Part shown: positions 3,590 through 22,747 of the stretch, one piece after another | How positions within the stretch are numbered: the first letter of the stretch is position 1 | Layout: each line of letters opens with the position of its first letter | Assembly (NCBI RefSeq): GCF_004342485.1 | Contig: NZ_SMBU01000010.1 | Span: 62,001 to 126,000, forward strand | Direction: 5' to 3' | DNA from: Roseateles saccharophilus | GTDB lineage: Bacteria > Pseudomonadota > Gammaproteobacteria > Burkholderiales > Burkholderiaceae_C | DNA: 64,000 bases | Notes under the pieces: model-generated | Databases searched by the model: none | What the model was told of the DNA's origin: nothing | The model's input: only the letters and a program-made list of their open reading frames with translations | Translations under genes and position numbers: made by a program

Positions 3590-5062
<1,473 letters not shown>

Positions 5063-5096
5063 TCGGTTCCTCAACCGCGCCGGCGGGCTCGTGACC

Positions 5097-6203
5097 TCAG
5101 GGCAGCGGAATCGTGATTCGGAAGTTCGTCAGGCCCGGCTCGCTCTCGCAATCGATCATGCCCTGGTGCTGTTGGGCGATCGTCTGCGCGAGCGTGAGTC
5201 CGAGGCCCGAGCCGCCCTCCCGCCCCGAGACCAGGGGGAAGAAGATGCGATCCCGGATCTCGGCGGGGACGCCGGGACCGTTGTCCTCAATATGCAATTC
5301 CAATGCCAAGCGCCAGCGCTGCTTACCAATGGTCACCTGCCGGGCGACGCGGGTGCGCAGCGTGATCCGGGCGTCGCCGGCCGCGATGCGCGAACCGAGC
5401 GCCTGAGCGGCGTTCTGCACGATGTTGAGCACCATCTGGATCAACTGCTCGCGGTCGCCGCGGAAGTCGGGCAGCGAGGTGTCGTAATCGCGCTGGATGC
5501 GCAGGCCCCCGTTCGAGTTCTGATGCTCGATGAGCACGAGCGAGCGCACGCGCTCGCAGATCTCGTGGATGTTGACGTCGCCGACGACCTGGGCCTTGCG
5601 GTGCGGCGCGAGCAGCCGGTCCACCAGGCTCTGCAGGCGGTCCACCTCGTGGACGATGACCTGGGTGTATTCGTTCAGCTCGGGGTTGCCGTCCTGCAGT
5701 TCCAGCGCCAGCAACTGGGCCGCGCCACGGATGCCGCCGAGCGGGTTCTTGATCTCGTGGGCGAGGTTGCGCGTGAGCTCCTTGGTGGCCTGGACCTGGT
5801 CGAGGCTGCGCTCGTCGCGGTCCTGGCGGGCCTGCTGGGCGATCTCGATGAGCTCGACGAGCACGCGCGGCTCGCCGTCCTCGCCCGCGTCCATCTGCGA
5901 CACGATGACATGCACCGGCAGGCCGTCCTCGTGCGCCCAGGCGCCGCGGCGCAGCAACGCATCGAAGCGGCTGCTGGAGTAGTGGTTGGCGGCCACGCCG
6001 GCCAGGGTCTCGGTGAGGCGCTGGGCGTCGTCGAACCAGTCGGGCAGTTGGGCCTTCTGCACCGTGCGGCGCGACAGCCGCATGCCGTTCTCGAAGGCCG
6101 CGTTGGCAAACAGGCATTCGCCGTCGGCACGGGCGACGACGACCATCGTCGCCAGCAGGTCCAGGCCGGCGAACTCGGCCGGCAACAGATGCGCATCAGA
6201 CAT
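5097..6203 (-). CDS. ntrB: Nitrogen regulation sensor histidine kinase NtrB (NR(II))
   Basis: A 368-residue cytoplasmic histidine kinase/phosphatase that controls NtrC in response to PII. An N-terminal PAS-like region (about 10-120) precedes the H-box NLAHEIKNPLGG (phosphorylated His near residue 150), N-box NIVQNAAQA, G1 EDNGPGVP and G2 GREGGSGLGL. There are no membrane segments, as expected for NtrB. It is co-oriented with glnA upstream and ntrC downstream. A small secreted-protein gene and a GC palindrome separate it from glnA, so it may be partly uncoupled from glnA transcription. Confidence 0.96.
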   Translation of the reverse strand: MSDAHLLPAEFAGLDLLATMVVVARADGECLFANAAFENGMRLSRRTVQKAQLPDWFDDAQRLTETLAGVAANHYSSSRFDALLRRGAWAHEDGLPVHVIVSQMDAGEDGEPRVLVELIEIAQQARQDRDERSLDQVQATKELTRNLAHEIKNPLGGIRGAAQLLALELQDGNPELNEYTQVIVHEVDRLQSLVDRLLAPHRKAQVVGDVNIHEICERVRSLVLIEHQNSNGGLRIQRDYDTSLPDFRGDREQLIQMVLNIVQNAAQALGSRIAAGDARITLRTRVARQVTIGKQRWRLALELHIEDNGPGVPAEIRDRIFFPLVSGREGGSGLGLTLAQTIAQQHQGMIDCESEPGLTNFRITIPLP

Positions 6204-6886: not shown

Positions 6887-8302
6887 TCACAGCGCGTAGT
6901 ACATGTCGAACTCGACCGGGTGGGTCGCCATGCGGAAGCGGGTCACTTCCTGCATCTTCAGCTCGATGTAGGCATCGATGTAGCTGTCGGTGAACACGCC
7001 GCCCTTGGTCAGGAAGGCACGGTCCTTGTCCAGGTAGTCCAGCGCTTGGTCGAGGCTGTGGCAGACGGTCGGGATCTTCGCGTCTTCCTCGGGCGGCAGG
7101 TGGTACAGGTCCTTGGTGGCGGCTTCGCCCGGGTGGATCTTGTTCTCCACGCCGTCCAGGCCGGCCATCAGCAGCGCGGCAAAGGCCAGGTAGGGGTTGG
7201 CGGAGGGGTCCGGGAAGCGGGCTTCGATACGGCGGCCCTTGGGGTTGCCGACGTAGGGGATGCGGATCGAGGCCGAGCGGTTCTTGGCCGAGTAGGCCAG
7301 CTTCACCGGGGCTTCGAAGCCGGGCACCAGGCGCTTGTACGAGTTCGTGCCGGGGTTGGTGATGGCGTTCAGCGCACGGGCGTGCTTGATGATGCCGCCG
7401 ATGTAGTACAGCGCGAAGTCGGACAGGCCTGCATAGCCGTCACCGGCGAACAGGTTCTTGCCATCCTTCCACACGGACTGGTGCACGTGCATGCCGGAGC
7501 CGTTGTCGCCAACGAGGGGCTTGGGCATGAAGGTCGCGGTCTTGCCATAGGCGTGGGCGACGTTGGTGATGATGTACTTCTGCAGTTGCAGCCAGTCGGC
7601 GCGCTCGACGAGGGAGCTGAACTTGGTGCCGATTTCCATCTGGCCGGCGTTCGCCACTTCGTGGTGGTGCACTTCGACCGGGATGCCCATCTGCTCGAGG
7701 ATCAGGCACATTTCCGAGCGCATGTCCTGGCCGCTGTCGACCGGGGGCACGGGGAAGTAGCCGCCCTTGACCGTGGGACGGTAGCCGCTGTTGCCGTGCT
7801 CGTACTCCTTGGCGGAGTTCCAGGCGCCTTCCTCGGACTCGATCTTGAAGAACGAGCCGGACATCTCATTGCCCCAGCGCACGCTGTCGAAGATGAAGAA
7901 CTCGGGCTCAGGGCCGAAGAAGGCGGTGTCGCCCAGGCCGGAAGCCTTCAGATAGGCCTCGGCGCGCTTGGCCAGCGAACGCGGGTCGCGCTCGTAGGCC
8001 TTGCCGTCGGCGGGGTCGACCACGTCACAGGTCAGGATCAGCGTCGGCTCTTCGAAGAAGGGGTCGACGTTGGCCGTGTTGGGATCGGGCATGAGCAGCA
8101 TGTCCGAGGCCTCGATGCCCTTCCAGCCGGCGATCGAGGAGCCGTCGAAGGCGTGGCCCGACGTGAACTTGTCTTCATCGAAATGGGAGACCGGCACGGT
8201 GACGTGCTGCTCCTTGCCACGGGTGTCGGTGAAGCGGAAGTCGACGAACTTGACTTCGTTCTCCTTCACCATGTTCATCACATCGGCGACGGTCTTGGCC
8301 AT
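6887..8302 (-). CDS. glnA: Type I glutamine synthetase
   Basis: A 471-residue GSI that condenses ammonium and glutamate to glutamine with ATP, as a cytoplasmic dodecamer. Signatures seen are FDGSSIAGW near residue 55, EPEFFIFD, the ATP-binding segment [25 protein letters not shown], and [10 protein letters not shown], which carries the regulatory adenylylation tyrosine near residue 398. That site implies GlnE control. The ATG at 8302 follows an AGGAGC site; a TTG one codon earlier is unlikely. A sigma-54 promoter lies 80-95 bases upstream and a strong terminator follows, so it can be expressed alone under NtrC control. Confidence 0.98.
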
Positions 8303-8380
8303 CAAAAGCTCCTAGCGGGATCGAGAGGGGTGGGTTGCTGCCGCTGGCGCACACGCGCCAACGGCCACGGAGGAAATCAA

Positions 8381-8396
8381 AGCAGGTTGCATGCCA
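8381..8396 (-). promoter_or_regulatory. Sigma-54 (RpoN) -24/-12 promoter of glnA
   Basis: The - strand reads TGGCATG-CAAC-CTGCT, with GG and GC exactly 12 bases apart as in the consensus TGGCAYR-N4-TTGCW. The predicted start site is near 8369, giving an approximately 67-base leader. A TGCACC half-site at 8400-8405 within TGCACCGACATGGG resembles half of an NtrC site, but it is too close to the promoter to be a typical enhancer. Confidence 0.8.
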
Positions 8397-8467: not shown

Positions 8468-9259
8468 CTATCGCACCAGCTCGGTGCCGATGAGCGCACC
8501 AAACTGGATCACGCCCTGTTTGAGGGCATCGTAGGCCGGCAAGAGGCGTTGGGCATCACCCTTGACGCCGAGCTCGATGCAGCGGCCCCATTGCGGGTGG
8601 TCGACGCTGGGCAGGCTGAAAACCTTGATGCCGTCGAAGCCGGCCTCGATGGCCTCCATCAACGGCGTCAAGCTGGCCTCCATGGCGCCCTGCACGATCA
8701 GCGAGCGCTCGGTGACGCCAACCTCGCGATGCAGTTGCGGATAGCGGTCCAGCACCCAGGCCATCATCGGGTGGGCCATCACCGGGAAGCCGGGCACGAA
8801 GTGCAGGTTGCCGACGAAGAAGCCGGGGATCTTGTTGAAGGGGTTGGGGATGATGCCGGCGCCTTCGGGGAAGACGCCCATCTCGAAGCGGCGCAGGCTG
8901 TCTGGTTCGTCGGCCCTGACGGTCTTGCCCTGCTCCTCGGCCATCTTCCGGATGCGCTGCCAGATCAGCTCGCGCGCCTCGGGATGCAGGGCCAGCGGGC
9001 GGCCGAGCGCGGCGGCGGCGGCCTGGCGGGTGTGGTCGTCGGGCGTGGCGCCGATGCCGCCGCAGCTGACCACCAGATCGCCGCTCGCGAAGACTTCGCG
9101 CAGTCGCGCCGTCAGTAGCTCGCGGTCGTCGCCCAGGTATTGCGCCCAGGACAGCTGCATGCCGCGCTGGGCCAGCAGCTCGATGAACTTGGCCAGATGC
9201 GCGTCCTGGCGCTTGCCGGACAGGATCTCGTCGCCAATGATGAGCAGGCCGATCTGCAT
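8468..9259 (-). CDS. Competence/damage-inducible protein A-like, molybdopterin-binding domain protein
   Basis: A 263-residue protein starting MQIGLLIIGDEILSGKRQD, the N-terminal MoCF-biosynthesis fold of CinA. The motif SCGGIGATPDDHT is conserved. Full CinA is about 400 residues and carries a C-terminal PncC nicotinamide-nucleotide amidase domain; that domain is absent. The protein may therefore be an ADP-ribose-type pyrophosphatase or a nucleotide-binding protein of unknown role. The start at 9259 is four bases after the EI24 gene stop. The remaining upstream 5' sequence is the glnA promoter region of the neighbour. Confidence 0.85.
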   Translation of the reverse strand: MQIGLLIIGDEILSGKRQDAHLAKFIELLAQRGMQLSWAQYLGDDRELLTARLREVFASGDLVVSCGGIGATPDDHTRQAAAAALGRPLALHPEARELIWQRIRKMAEEQGKTVRADEPDSLRRFEMGVFPEGAGIIPNPFNKIPGFFVGNLHFVPGFPVMAHPMMAWVLDRYPQLHREVGVTERSLIVQGAMEASLTPLMEAIEAGFDGIKVFSLPSVDHPQWGRCIELGVKGDAQRLLPAYDALKQGVIQFGALIGTELVR

Positions 9260-17869: not shown

Positions 17870-18607
17870 TCAGCCCATGTGCAGGCCGCCGTTGCAGGAG
17901 AAGTCCGCACCGGTCGTGAAGCCGCTGTCCTCACCGGCCAGCCAGGTCACGACGGAGCCGATTTCCTCGGGCGTGCCCAGGCGCTTGACGGGAATGGTCG
18001 CGACGATCTTCTCCAGCACCTCGGGCTTGATCGCCTTGACCATGTCGGTGCCGATATAGCCGGGGCTGACGGTGTTGACCGTCACGCCCTTGGCCGCCAG
18101 TTCCTGGGCCAGGGCCATCGTGAAGCCGTGCATGCCGGCCTTGGCGGCCGAGTAGTTGGTCTGGCCGGCCTGGCCCTTCTCGCCGTTGACCGACGAGATC
18201 TGGATGATGCGGCCCCAGCCCTTCTCGACCATGCCCGGCACGACCTGCTTGGTCACGTTGAACATGGAGTTCAGGTTGGTGTCGATGACGGCCTTCCAGT
18301 CTTCGGGCGTCATCTTCAGGAACATGCGGTCGCGCGTGATGCCGGCGTTGTTGACGAGGACGTCGATGGCGCCGTGTTCGCTGATGGCTTTGGTGAAGGC
18401 CTCGACCGTCGAGTCCCAGTCGGCCACGTTGCCGACCGAGGCATGGAAGGCGAAGCCCAGGGCCTTCTGCTCGTCCAGCCACTTCTGATAGTCGCGGCTG
18501 GGGCCGCAACCGGCGATGACCTTGAAGCCCGCCTTGGCCAGCTTCTGGCAGATGGCGGTGCCGATGCCGCCCATGCCGCCGGTGACGTAGGCAATCTTTT
18601 GGCTCAT
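17870..18607 (-). CDS. phaB: Acetoacetyl-CoA reductase
   Basis: A 245-residue short-chain dehydrogenase that reduces acetoacetyl-CoA to (R)-3-hydroxybutyryl-CoA with NADPH, the second step of PHB synthesis. The Rossmann motif TGGMGGIG (residues 9-16), NNAG, and the catalytic set S139, Y152 and K156 (NYSAAK) are all present. The length equals that of Cupriavidus PhaB (246). It is the last gene of phaC-phaA-phaB; a 40-base gap separates it from phaA, and a GC-rich terminator follows. Confidence 0.97.
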   Translation of the reverse strand: MSQKIAYVTGGMGGIGTAICQKLAKAGFKVIAGCGPSRDYQKWLDEQKALGFAFHASVGNVADWDSTVEAFTKAISEHGAIDVLVNNAGITRDRMFLKMTPEDWKAVIDTNLNSMFNVTKQVVPGMVEKGWGRIIQISSVNGEKGQAGQTNYSAAKAGMHGFTMALAQELAAKGVTVNTVSPGYIGTDMVKAIKPEVLEKIVATIPVKRLGTPEEIGSVVTWLAGEDSGFTTGADFSCNGGLHMG

Positions 18608-18647: not shown

Positions 18648-19832
18648 TCAGCGCTCGACGGTCAGGGCCACGCCCATGCCGCCGCCGATGCACAGCGATG
18701 CGATGCCCTTCTTCGCGTCGCGCCGCTGCATCTCGTGCAGCAGCGTCACGAGGATGCGGCAGCCGCTGGCGCCGATGGGGTGGCCCAGCGCGATCGCGCC
18801 GCCGTTGACGTTGACCTTGCTGGTGTCCCAGCCCATCTCGTTGTGCACGGCACAGGCCTGGGCCGCGAAGGCCTCGTTGATCTCGAGCAGGTCCAGGTCG
18901 GCCGGCTTCCAGCCGGCCCGCTCCAGGGCCCTGCGGGCGGCAGGCACCGGGCCCATGCCCATGTAGGCGGGGTCCAGGCCGGCCGAGGCATAGGAGGCGA
19001 TGCGGGCCAGCGGCTTCAGGCCCAGGGCCGCGGCCTTGGCGGCGGTCATGACGACCACGCCGGCCGCGCCGTCGTTCAGGCCCGAGGCATTGCCGGCCGT
19101 CACGCTGCCGGCCTTGTCGAAGGCGGGCCGCAGGCCGGCCAGAACGTCGGCACTGGACTTGCGGTTGATGAACTCGTCGGCGGCGAAGACGACGGGGTCG
19201 CCCTTCTTCTGCGCGATGCTGAAGGGCACGATCTCGTCCTTGAAGCGGCCGGCGTCCTGGGCCGCGGCGGCCTTCTGCTGCGAGGCCAGCGCCAGCGCGT
19301 CCTGCTGTTCGCGGCTGATGCCGTACTTCTTCGCGACGTTCTCGGCGGTGATGCCCATGTGGTACTGGTTGTACACGTCCCACAGGCCGTCGTTGATCAT
19401 GGTGTCCACCATCTTCCAGTCGCCCATGCGCTGGCCGTCGCGCGAGCCGTTGAGCACGTGGGGGCTCAGGCTCATGCTCTCCTGGCCGCCGGCGATGACG
19501 ATGTCGCTGTCGCCGTCGCGGATGGCTTGGGCGGCCAGCATCACGGCCTTCAGGCCCGAGCCGCAGACCTTGTTGATGGTCATGGCCGGCACGGCTTGGG
19601 GCAGGCCGGACTTGATGACGGACTGGCGCGCCGGGTTCTGGCCAACGCCGGCCGTCAGCACCTGGCCGAGGATGACCTCGTTGATCTGGTCGCCGGCCAG
19701 GCCGGTGCGGCGCAGCAGGTCCTGGATGACGGCGGCGCCAAGCTCGCTGGCGGGGGTCTTGGCGAGCGTGCCGCCGAACTTGCCGATGGCGGTGCGCGCG
19801 GCAGCGACGATGACGATGTCTTCCTTGCTCAT
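18648..19832 (-). CDS. phaA: Acetyl-CoA acetyltransferase (beta-ketothiolase)
   Basis: A 394-residue thiolase that condenses two acetyl-CoA into acetoacetyl-CoA. The nucleophile is C89 in INKVCGSG, the signature NEAFAAQ and histidine in [14 protein letters not shown] follow, and the base is C381 in SLCIGGGMG. Length and motifs match PhaA of Cupriavidus necator (393). It lies between phaC, 185 bases upstream, and phaB. The long gap before it holds stem-loops that could set the phaC to phaAB ratio. Confidence 0.97.
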
Positions 19833-20017: not shown

Positions 20018-21703
20018 TCAGGCTTTGACCTTGACGTACCGGCCCGGCGCCGGCTCGATGGATTTGTATTTGCGGTTGCCCGGCGCCTTGGGCGCGGGCT
20101 TGGGCGCGCCGGCATGCGAGGCCAGCCAGGCGGACCAGTCCGGCCACCAGCTGCCGGCATGCTCGGTGGCACCCTTGAACCAGGCCTCGGGGTCGGCCGG
20201 CAACGTGGCCCCCTTGGCGATCCAGTGGCTGCGCCTGGGCGGCTTGCCGGGCTTGGGCGGCGGATTGATGACGCCGGCGATATGGCCCGAGGCGCCCATC
20301 ACGAAGCGCTTCTTGCCGGCCAGGATCTGTGTGCTGCGGTAGGCGCTGGTCCAGGGCACGATGTGGTCCTCGCGCGAGCCGTAGATGTAGACCGGAGCCT
20401 CGATGGCGCCGAGGTCCAGCTTCTCGCCGCAGACGGTCAGCTTGCCCGGCTGCTTCAGCTCGTTCTGCAGATAGGTGTGGCGCAGATACCAGCAGTACAT
20501 CGGGCCCGGCAGGTTGGTCGAGTCGCCGTTCCAGTACAGCAGGTCGAAGGGCGGCGGCGCCTCGCCCTTCAGGTAGTTGCCGACGACATAGTTCCAGACC
20601 AGGTCGTTGGGGCGCAGGAAGCTGAAGGTCGTCGCCAGTTCCTGGCCGTGCAGCAGCTGCGGGCCCTTGGGCGAGTCGGGGCCGAGGGTGGCCTCGCGCA
20701 GGCGCACGCTGGCCTCGTCGACGAAGATGTCCAGGATGCCGTTGTCGCTGAAGTCCAGCAGCGTGGTCAGCAGCGTGACGCTGGCGGCCGGCTGTTCGCC
20801 GCGTGCGGCCAGCACGCCCAGCGCGGTGGCGAGGATGGTGCCGCCGACGCAGAAGCCCAGCGTGTTGATCTGGTCCTGACCCGAGATCTCCTGCGCGACG
20901 CGGATGGCTTGGATGGCGCCGCTCTCGATGTAGTCGTCCCAGCTCAGGTGCCGGACCGACTCGTCCGGGTTGCGCCAGCTGACGACGAAGACACGGTTGC
21001 CCTCGGCCACCGCGTAGCGGATCAGCGAGTTGTCGGGCTGCAGGTCGAGGATGTAGAACTTGTTGATGCAGGGCGGCACCATCAGCAGCGGCCGCGCCTT
21101 GATCTCGGCCGTCAGCGGCGCGTACTCGATGAGCTGGAAAAGCTCGTTCTCGTAGACGATGTTGCCGGCCGTCGTGGCCACGTTGCGGCCGACCTCGAAG
21201 GCGCTCTCGTCCGTCTGCGACACATGGCCGCGCTGCACGTCGCCCCACAGGTTCTGCAGTCCGCGCGACAGCGTCTCGCCGCTGCTGTCCAGCGCCAGTT
21301 TCTGGGCCTCGGGATTCAGCGCCAGGAAGTTGCTCGGCGAGGCCGCGTCGACGAACTGCTGCACGGCGAAGCGGATGCGTGCCTTGGTCTTGCCGTCGGC
21401 CTCGACCGCCGCGGCCATCTGCGACAGCGTGCGGCCGTTGAGCAGGTAGAGCTGGGTCAGGAAGCTGGCGGCCGGGTTGGAACGCCATTCGGGCGCCGCG
21501 AAGCGCCGGTCGCTGACGGTCGGAGCCTCGCTCTGGCCGAGCGACAAATTCCACAGCGCCGTGGCCTGCTGCAGATAGTCGGCTTGGAGTTCGGCCAGCG
21601 TGGCCGCTGAGATCTGCGGCAGATGCGCCATCTGCTGCATCAGCTCCGCAAAGGCCTGCCCCTCCGTCGGGGGCGGGGCGTCGTTCTTCTTGCGAGTGGC
21701 CAT
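20018..21703 (-). CDS. phaC: Class I polyhydroxyalkanoate synthase
   Basis: A 561-residue PHA synthase that polymerises (R)-3-hydroxyacyl-CoA at the granule surface. It has the class I N-terminal region, then the alpha/beta-hydrolase core with lipase-like box GFCVGG (catalytic C285), aspartate in SREDHIVPW and histidine in SGHIAGV. KSIEPAPGRYVKVKA is a typical C-terminus. The ATG at 21703 has a GAGGAAC site. A near-perfect sigma-54 element lies 50-65 bases upstream. pgeF lies upstream on the same strand, separated by a small gene on the opposite strand. phaA and phaB follow. Confidence 0.97.
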   Translation of the reverse strand: MATRKKNDAPPPTEGQAFAELMQQMAHLPQISAATLAELQADYLQQATALWNLSLGQSEAPTVSDRRFAAPEWRSNPAASFLTQLYLLNGRTLSQMAAAVEADGKTKARIRFAVQQFVDAASPSNFLALNPEAQKLALDSSGETLSRGLQNLWGDVQRGHVSQTDESAFEVGRNVATTAGNIVYENELFQLIEYAPLTAEIKARPLLMVPPCINKFYILDLQPDNSLIRYAVAEGNRVFVVSWRNPDESVRHLSWDDYIESGAIQAIRVAQEISGQDQINTLGFCVGGTILATALGVLAARGEQPAASVTLLTTLLDFSDNGILDIFVDEASVRLREATLGPDSPKGPQLLHGQELATTFSFLRPNDLVWNYVVGNYLKGEAPPPFDLLYWNGDSTNLPGPMYCWYLRHTYLQNELKQPGKLTVCGEKLDLGAIEAPVYIYGSREDHIVPWTSAYRSTQILAGKKRFVMGASGHIAGVINPPPKPGKPPRRSHWIAKGATLPADPEAWFKGATEHAGSWWPDWSAWLASHAGAPKPAPKAPGNRKYKSIEPAPGRYVKVKA

Positions 21704-21752
21704 GTGTTCCTCAGGTCTCAGTCATCGCCGCAGCGGTCATTTATGGGGCCAG

Positions 21753-21768
21753 TGCAATAAGCTTGCCA
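21753..21768 (-). promoter_or_regulatory. Probable sigma-54 promoter of phaCAB
   Basis: The - strand reads TGGCAAG-CTTA-TTGCA, which differs from the consensus TGGCACG-N4-TTGCA at one position and has exact GG-to-GC spacing. The predicted start is near 21742, about 39 bases before the phaC ATG. No convincing NtrC site was found nearby; an enhancer could lie inside the gene at 21833-22099. The promoter call is by motif only. Confidence 0.72.
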
Positions 21769-21832
21769 CATCTTGCCGACATGGCTTTGTAACTTTGGGC
21801 GCTGACGCGCTCATGACACACCCGTCTCATTC

Positions 21833-22099
21833 ATGTATCTCGTCGCCATCGCCTGGGCCTACGTCGCGCTGACGATGGCCGCAGCGGAAGCGCTCAGCCC
21901 GCAGGGCACCCTGCTCGGCGCCTTCATCACGCTGCTGCTCTACGGCGTGCTGCCGCTGGGCCTGCTGCTCTACATCCTCGGCACGCCGGGCCGCAAACGG
22001 CGCCGGCGCGCGGCCGAATCACTGGCCGAGGGCGATGCAAGCGGCCATGCGGCCGCGGGGCCGGCCGAGGGCCTCGCCGCGGAACGAGAAGAAGCGTGA
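21833..22099 (+). CDS. Small hypothetical membrane protein, overlapping the end of pgeF
   Basis: An 88-residue protein with two hydrophobic segments (residues 2-20 and 27-50), then a basic stretch (PGRKRRRRAAE) and an acidic Ala-rich tail. The last 81 bases overlap the 3' end of pgeF on the opposite strand, where both frames are open. It has no strong ribosome site. The hydrophobic N-terminus supports a real gene; the tail may have extended over the neighbour. Its role is unknown. Confidence 0.5.
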   Translation: MYLVAIAWAYVALTMAAAEALSPQGTLLGAFITLLLYGVLPLGLLLYILGTPGRKRRRRAAESLAEGDASGHAAAGPAEGLAAEREEA

Positions 22100-22747
22100 C
22101 TCGTCGGTCAGCGTGCACCAGCCGCCGCCGCTGACCTCGGTGACGCCGGCCGCCTGCAGGCGCTCGCGCGCCAGCAGGGCCAGGTCCGCACGCCAGCGCG
22201 GTTCGGGGTTGGGGCGATAGAGGAAGCCGGGCTGGTCGCGCGCCAGCGGCTCACGGCCGAAGGCCTGCACGACCTCCGGCCCGACCTCGAAGGCCTCGGG
22301 GCCGATGCAGGCGCCGAGCCAGGCCCCGACCTCACCGGGCTCGCAGCCCACCGCGCCGCACAGCTCGGCCACCGTGTTCTCCAGCACGCCCGCGGCCAGG
22401 CCGCGCCAGCCCGCATGGGCGCCGGCCACGCCCCCGGGCACAGCGAACAGCACCGGCAGGCAGTCGGCCACGAGGATGGCCACGGCCAGATCGGGATCGG
22501 TGGACACGGCGGCATCGGCCTGGGGCGCGTTGCCGTCGTGCCAGTCGGCGCGCAGGCGCACGACGCCGGCGCCATGCACCTGATCCAGGAAGACGGGCCG
22601 TGCGCCGAGCAACTCGGCCAGGCCGGCGCGATTGGCGCGCACCTCGTCGGGGTCGCCCGCCTTGCGCCCGAAATTCGGCCCGCGCGTCGTCATGAAGGCG
22701 GTCACGCCAGGCCAGTCCGGCTTCAGCCAGTTCGCGTCAGGCCGCAT
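22019..22747 (-). CDS. pgeF: Peptidoglycan editing factor PgeF (YfiH, laccase-domain multicopper family)
   Basis: A 242-residue protein of the DUF152/YfiH family. Family motifs seen are LDQVHGAGV, VADCLPVLF, GAHAGWRGLAAGV and GACIGPEAFEVG, in which His and Cys bind zinc. Characterised members remove L-serine-containing muropeptides from wrongly built peptidoglycan precursors or act on purine nucleosides. It starts 11 bases before the end of maiA (overlap), so they are coupled. Location next to phaC recurs in Burkholderiales. Confidence 0.9.
   Translation of the reverse strand: MRPDANWLKPDWPGVTAFMTTRGPNFGRKAGDPDEVRANRAGLAELLGARPVFLDQVHGAGVVRLRADWHDGNAPQADAAVSTDPDLAVAILVADCLPVLFAVPGGVAGAHAGWRGLAAGVLENTVAELCGAVGCEPGEVGAWLGACIGPEAFEVGPEVVQAFGREPLARDQPGFLYRPNPEPRWRADLALLARERLQAAGVTEVSGGGWCTLTDESRFFSFRGEALGRPRGRMAACIALGQ

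Follow-up and report, generated by a model that had tools for sequence, protein, structure and literature searches.

PHB is classically produced when nitrogen or phosphate is exhausted. The same two triggers are named in the accessible part of PMC5648810. The phaCAB genes of Roseateles saccharophilus, which we studied in a window of 64,000 nucleotides (i.e., the whole stretch of DNA analysed), raise the question of which nutrient signal their promoter reads. The first-pass annotation of this DNA had opted for nitrogen: it described a minus-strand sigma-54 element upstream of phaC, drew attention to ntrBC and to a glnA gene with its own sigma-54 element in the same window, and proposed a sigma-54 promoter linking PHA storage to nitrogen control, although it had seen no NtrC enhancer site at phaC.

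The three genes lie on the minus strand, phaC being followed by phaA and phaB: phaC (20018–21703, start at 21703) encodes a class I PHA synthase (TIGR01838, above the cut-off), phaA (18648–19832) an acetyl-CoA acetyltransferase (TIGR01930) and phaB (17870–18607) an acetoacetyl-CoA reductase (TIGR01829). A GAGGA on the same strand (21708–21712) is the likely ribosome-binding site of phaC, as judged by its position only. Upstream, an intergenic gap of 129 bp separates phaC from a divergent 88-aa ORF (21833–22099, plus strand), which is present in 97 of the 99 phaC upstream regions and has no match in Pfam or NCBIfam. This ORF shares 81 bp with the 3′ end of a PF02578 (PgeF-like) gene on the other strand (22019–22747, minus strand), and its codons from about 68 onward are almost invariant. 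The genome also encodes a second, distant PhaC homologue with 38% identity (L002, G000:C5:19158-20741), and neither a Pho-type block nor a sigma-54-like element was found upstream of that PhaC match. As for regulators, rpoN is represented by a single gene above the cut-off in the genome (TIGR02395), PhoB and PhoR are encoded beside pst genes (TIGR02154 and TIGR02966, both above the cut-off), and the PhaR peptide motif was seen in three Ralstonia-type loci, in a search limited to the retrieved loci.

Conservation was followed in two sets of loci. The same-genus set consists of 19 loci (the window, WIN, and L083–L100; 20 genomes were searched, of which 19 matched), and the family set of 80 phaC-anchored loci, taken in 80 genomes of 45 genera outside the genus so as to cover roughly 500 bp ahead of the phaC match. 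The latter were chosen among the matches listed (315 of 399 genomes matched), taking the 40 nearest outside the genus and then 40 others with gaps. Because the 102-row scan contains duplicates (WIN/L001, L003/L091, L005/L100 and others), our counts rest on the 19 + 80 loci.

The sigma-54-like element TGGCAAGCTTATTGCA is indeed present on the minus strand at 21753–21768, with its GG at 21767–21766 and its GC at 21755–21754, and both the single departure from the consensus and the exact GG/GC spacing given by the first-pass annotation are confirmed: it agrees with the -24/-12 consensus TGGCACGNNNNTTGCW at 11 of 12 positions (the sole departure being A for C), it has the spacing GG-N10-GC, and its 3′ end lies 49 nt ahead of the phaC ATG. 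As a bare motif, such an element is not beyond chance. The pattern TGGCAN{6,8}TTGCW matches the window twice; shuffled sequences average 0.70 matches, and 16 out of 100 of them reach two as well. The match that is not at phaC (5293–5308) falls within the ntrB frame. Genome-wide, TGGCAN6TTGCW yields 11 matches against 4 in the reversed control. Since these counts are near the chance level, we dropped them as evidence.

The conservation of the element, in contrast, is beyond chance. Close relatives, in which the first-pass annotation had proposed to look for it, keep nine adjacent columns, TGGCAAGCT, invariant in all 19 same-genus loci; GG-N10-GC, with the -12 GC, is retained in 17 of them and the exact 16-mer in 15, while two loci of the genus (L084 and L088) retain TGTGGCAAGCTT without the -12 spacing. 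Across the family set, the 20-mer TGTGGCAAGCTTCTTGCCTG is found at a level of at least 17/20 in 18 of the 80 loci, representing 9 of the 45 genera, whereas the best of 1600 shuffles reaches 15/20. A diverged copy occurs in a tenth genus (g92, L265), and the element is absent from the remaining 61 of the 80 family leaders, including those of g22 and g70 (PhaC identity 73–76%). When sequences were scored as sigma-54 sites, 20 of the 80 family loci attained at least 11/12, against 3 of 800 shuffles, and 19 of these 20 sites are this very element. A functionless chance match, which the motif counts by themselves would allow, is thus already contradicted by the invariant columns of the genus and by the family scan, and we give that reading hardly any credence.

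Other genera mostly have the element in another shape. Outside the genus, 13 of the 19 element-bearing loci (7 of 10 genera) have it as a perfect inverted repeat of 15 bp, GGCAAG-CTT-CTTGCC, usually followed by TG, and the base 3′ of the GC is C, not A/T, in 15 of these 19 loci. The CTT and the T after it are also conserved there, and sigma-54 requires neither of them. Change is nonetheless lopsided, the left arm being near-fixed while the right arm retains mainly TGC: beside a constant left arm, the right arm appears as ATTGCA, CTTGCT, GATGCC, TTTGCC or CTTGCG, in a listing that is biased, having been obtained with a left-arm pattern, whereas the 20-mer scan is unbiased. A left-half-based pattern had matches in 29 of 399 genomes (5 hits in the reversed control), and 22 of the 30 places that it returned have phaC downstream, the other 8 being without it. 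Upstream of phaC, TGTGGCAAGCT is kept without the -12 or right arm in L084, L088 and L246 (g135), which would be unexplained if sigma-54 were the sole constraint.

What the first-pass annotation overlooked is a Pho-type block located directly upstream, which is more widely conserved than the sigma-54-like element. The block, GTCAT-N6-GTCAG-N10-TACAAA (21786–21817, minus strand), comprises two repeats (21817–21813 and 21806–21802; TGTCAT and CGTCAG with the base before each), of which the GTCA starts are 11 bp apart, and a -10-like hexamer TACAAA (21791–21786) after N10, with no good -35. The pattern GTCATN6GTMAGN10TACAAM is found at a level of at least 15/16 in 18 of the 19 same-genus loci and of at least 14/16 in 48 of the 80 family loci (24 of 45 genera), while none of 800 shuffles reaches 14; the other 32 family loci fall below 14/16. 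The block is absent from L100, in the same genus, and from three Ralstonia-type loci (L066, L073 and L077). Azohydromonas lata (L021), which produces PHB, does have it. Outside the genus, the second repeat of most loci with the block is GTAAG, not GTCA. Over the 5.77-Mb genome, GTCAN7GTCAN11TANRAW, a pattern composed after both sites were known, matches twice, before phaC and before pstS, and never in the reversed control; the stricter GTCATN6GTMAGN10TA matches phaC alone. A strict scan of the phaC leader returned no sigma-70 pair, and the best looser pair (8/12) lies elsewhere in the leader.

The Pho-type block and the downstream element are separate elements. Counted from where the -10 hexamer starts, the latter begins 12 to 61 nt further on in the 16 loci with both (21 nt in the window), and a transcript from the Pho-type promoter would include it in its leader. 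Two side observations concern this region. A further conserved stretch, GAGCATATGCGA, lies between the block and the downstream element in L252, L255 and L285 (g135), as well as in L012 and L016; it contains the palindrome GCATATGC and is possibly a lineage-specific binding site (the same genomes are also represented as L202–L204). Moreover, the second repeat of the block in L268 and L279 (g99) is TGTGGTAAGCTT, which is similar to TGTGGCAAGCTT, the downstream element's left half, and a partial duplication is one possible origin.

The classic target of PhoB is pstS, and the layout of a PhoB promoter, as in E. coli phoA, consists of two repeats with an 11-bp period, then 10 bp and a -10 hexamer, with a poor -35. 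In the genus, the 13 primary pstS loci display GTCAC-N6-GTCA(C/T)-N10-TAG(G/C)AT, at 12/12 scored positions in 12 loci and 11/12 in one. The phaC block shares with these promoters the two GTCA repeats 11 bp apart, the 10 bp and the -10 hexamer, but differs from them in its second repeat, which ends as GTCAG or, in many other genera, as GTAAG, and in its hexamer, which is TACAAA, not TAGGAT. Among order-level relatives, the pstS leaders L116, L125 and L128 have GAAA as the comparable second repeat; the pstS scan did not find a Pho box at the paralogous pstS L134, and L135–L142, scanned only with a stricter pattern that demanded TGTC, gave no match. What the sequence itself shows is the phaC block, the geometry of its parts, how well it is conserved and how closely it agrees with the pstS promoters of this genus; from this, PhoB would bind there and phaCAB would respond to phosphate.

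A precedent exists in the Acinetobacter pha locus, for which PhoB-dependent transcripts, Pho boxes and a phosphate-limitation promoter have been described (Schembri et al. 1995, as related in the accessible part of PMC7204398). In both systems, Pho boxes precede the genes of PHA biosynthesis. Dependence on PhoB was demonstrated in Acinetobacter, i.e., in another lineage, whereas the evidence presented here is that of the sequence; unlike in the Acinetobacter locus, a second, sigma-54-like element follows the Pho block in one group. Against the phosphate reading stands Herbaspirillum seropedicae, for which the accessible part of PMC8222739 has the PHB genes, phaC1 included, up at high, not low, phosphate. 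Our search, which covered part of the literature, found no report of a Pho box at a Burkholderiales phaC, nor of the combination of elements or its spread in that order.

The nitrogen genes of the window are those named by the first-pass annotation, and profiles identify all three on the minus strand: ntrC (3590–5074, TIGR01818), ntrB (5097–6203, NF008293) and glnA (6887–8305, TIGR00653). Upstream of glnA stands a sigma-54-type element, TGGCATGCAACCTGCT (8381–8396, minus strand), with 10/12 consensus positions and, 77 bp upstream of it, a perfect NtrC-type site, GCACCGAGCTGGTGC (8473–8487, minus strand, 10/10). The same genome has a sigma-54-type element shortly before the first gene of the glnK-amtB cluster; the promoters of glnA and glnK-amtB carry, like phaC, a -24/-12 element with 10–11/12 consensus positions. 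The resemblance stops at the enhancer: glnA has a perfect NtrC-type site upstream, whereas phaC has none, the best score of GCACY-N5-RGTGC within 600 bp of phaC being at most 8/10 over the window and 17 relatives of the same genus, against 10/10 in the glnA control. A 10/10 NtrC-type site was found at glnK in one of the four loci with 77–119 bp of upstream sequence. Of 11 same-genus loci, 8 have the identical glnK-amtB sigma-54-type 16-mer and one has it with a single base changed, while in two no element was found. Since the glnK-amtB element also keeps its spacer within the genus, spacer constancy is not decisive for the phaC element. A conserved enhancer block was also sought in the divergent gene and not found: the silent sites of its first 60 codons vary freely, so no hidden conserved enhancer is seen in that part, and the scan is confounded beyond about codon 62 by the overlap with the pgeF-like gene. 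An activator other than NtrC may, however, bind at a site that these scans would not recognise.

These results bear on the model of the first-pass annotation, according to which NtrC and sigma-54 would drive phaCAB directly under nitrogen limitation, as its main promoter. The sigma-54-like element and the presence of ntrBC and rpoN agree with it, as does the P. aeruginosa rpoN mutant, in which no PHA is made (accessible part of PMC7204398). Yet phaC lacks an NtrC site, a widely conserved Pho-type block lies upstream, and mutants of other bacteria point the opposite way, insofar as the accessible parts of the sources tell: ntrB/ntrC mutants of Azospirillum, Herbaspirillum and Paracoccus have more PHB (PMC9049629, PMC7204398, PMC5648810), and disruption of sigma-54 in Halomonas leads to higher PHB (PMC13101641). 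Similarly limited excerpts list a PHB depolymerase gene of B. cenocepacia as sigma-54/NtrC-dependent (PMC5491218), and report that nitrogen starvation of P. phymatum induces phasin and depolymerase genes, phaC not being named in the excerpt (PMC5748707). Altogether, these excerpts lend no weight to the view that NtrC activates PHB synthesis, and none of the sites found supports a nitrogen signal reaching phaC via NtrC. We thus regard NtrC control of the main promoter as improbable. What stands of the original proposal is the -24/-12-like element itself, which is conserved, suitably placed and correctly oriented, in a genome with rpoN; its other half, direct control of phaCAB by nitrogen, finds no support here.

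A more serious rival concerns the nature of the downstream element. Instead of a promoter, the 20 bp might be an operator for a dimeric regulator, and the likeness to sigma-54 sites a by-product of the GGCA...TGCC symmetry; located downstream of the Pho-type -10, it would be where a bound repressor blocks the polymerase. It is the palindromic form outside the genus, along with the lack of a conserved enhancer upstream of phaC (NtrC-type scan and silent sites of the divergent gene), that makes an operator a serious rival. A distance to the Pho block varying over 12 to 61 nt is what an operator would permit, and the left half retained alone in three loci also speaks for it, but the two arms are unequally constrained, the right one drifting while the left one stays. 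The exact GGCAAGNNNCTTGCC occurs away from phaC 23 times in 19 genomes, against 3 times in the reversed control; 19 of these 23 sites, however, lie within frames of at least 298 codons and hence look like coding matches, which is why the excess leaves the odds unaltered. The four others do not lie in such frames, and one of them has the CTT spacer, but no shared regulon emerges from the sites away from phaC. Known operators of PHB genes are not a good model either: those of PhbF/PhaR are likewise palindromic sites near PHB genes, but the core of PhbF is TGC-N3-GCA (accessible part of PMC3206438), whereas the phaC element has the reversed order, GCAAG-N3-CTTGC, and a PhaR/PhbF operator was rejected on this by-eye comparison. 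We therefore rank a sigma-54 site first, as the most likely identity of the downstream element, and a dimeric operator second, as a less likely possibility.

Among the distant sites, two of the 19 in long frames fall in related genes (L324 and L325). L320 (G243:C4, mid-locus) has a second GGCAAGCTTCTTGCC outside phaC, with the CTT spacer, where no frame exceeds 195 codons; it is possibly a second target of whatever reads the downstream element. Other candidates for the leader were also discarded. A sigma-70 promoter using TACAAA as its -35 and the downstream element as its -10 has too variable a spacing, and one with GTGGCA as its -35 (8/12 in the window) has a -10 that is not retained in relatives, as judged by reading. 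A leader RNA hairpin was rejected because the leaders of relatives, read without folding, showed no compensatory changes.

The explanation that we put forward, with about an even chance of being right as a whole, is that phaCAB is driven by a PhoB-type promoter, to which a downstream element, most probably a site for sigma-54, has been added in the Roseateles lineage. When phosphate is short, phosphorylated PhoB would bind the repeats of the block and recruit sigma-70 polymerase, as at pstS, and this polymerase would transcribe phaCAB from the upstream block. The downstream element would be a site for sigma-54 polymerase, fired by some enhancer-binding protein, and would provide a second promoter in the Roseateles lineage, with a start near 21742. 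Its consensus match, its fixed GG-N10-GC, its conservation and the presence of rpoN are consistent with such a use by sigma-54. Whether promoter or operator, the element in the leader most likely adds another input in the Roseateles lineage.

Each ingredient of this arrangement is already known, and the phosphate-type block is a more important feature than the sigma-54-like element. With a conserved Pho-type block beside the conserved sigma-54-like site, PHB storage in this organism may have a more direct link to phosphate than to nitrogen. One could go further and see in phaCAB a two-nutrient promoter, in which a younger sigma-54 promoter has settled in the leader of an older PhoB promoter for a second starvation signal; we offer this as a speculative view, rather doubtful at present, but if it is true, carbon storage is set by either of the two limits or by competition between the polymerases. 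How phaC promoters sense nutrient limits is understood in few producers. A Pho-type block in 25 of the 46 sampled genera (that of the window included) would open phosphate control of class I phaC to direct testing, and the downstream element would show a second input being added in one lineage.
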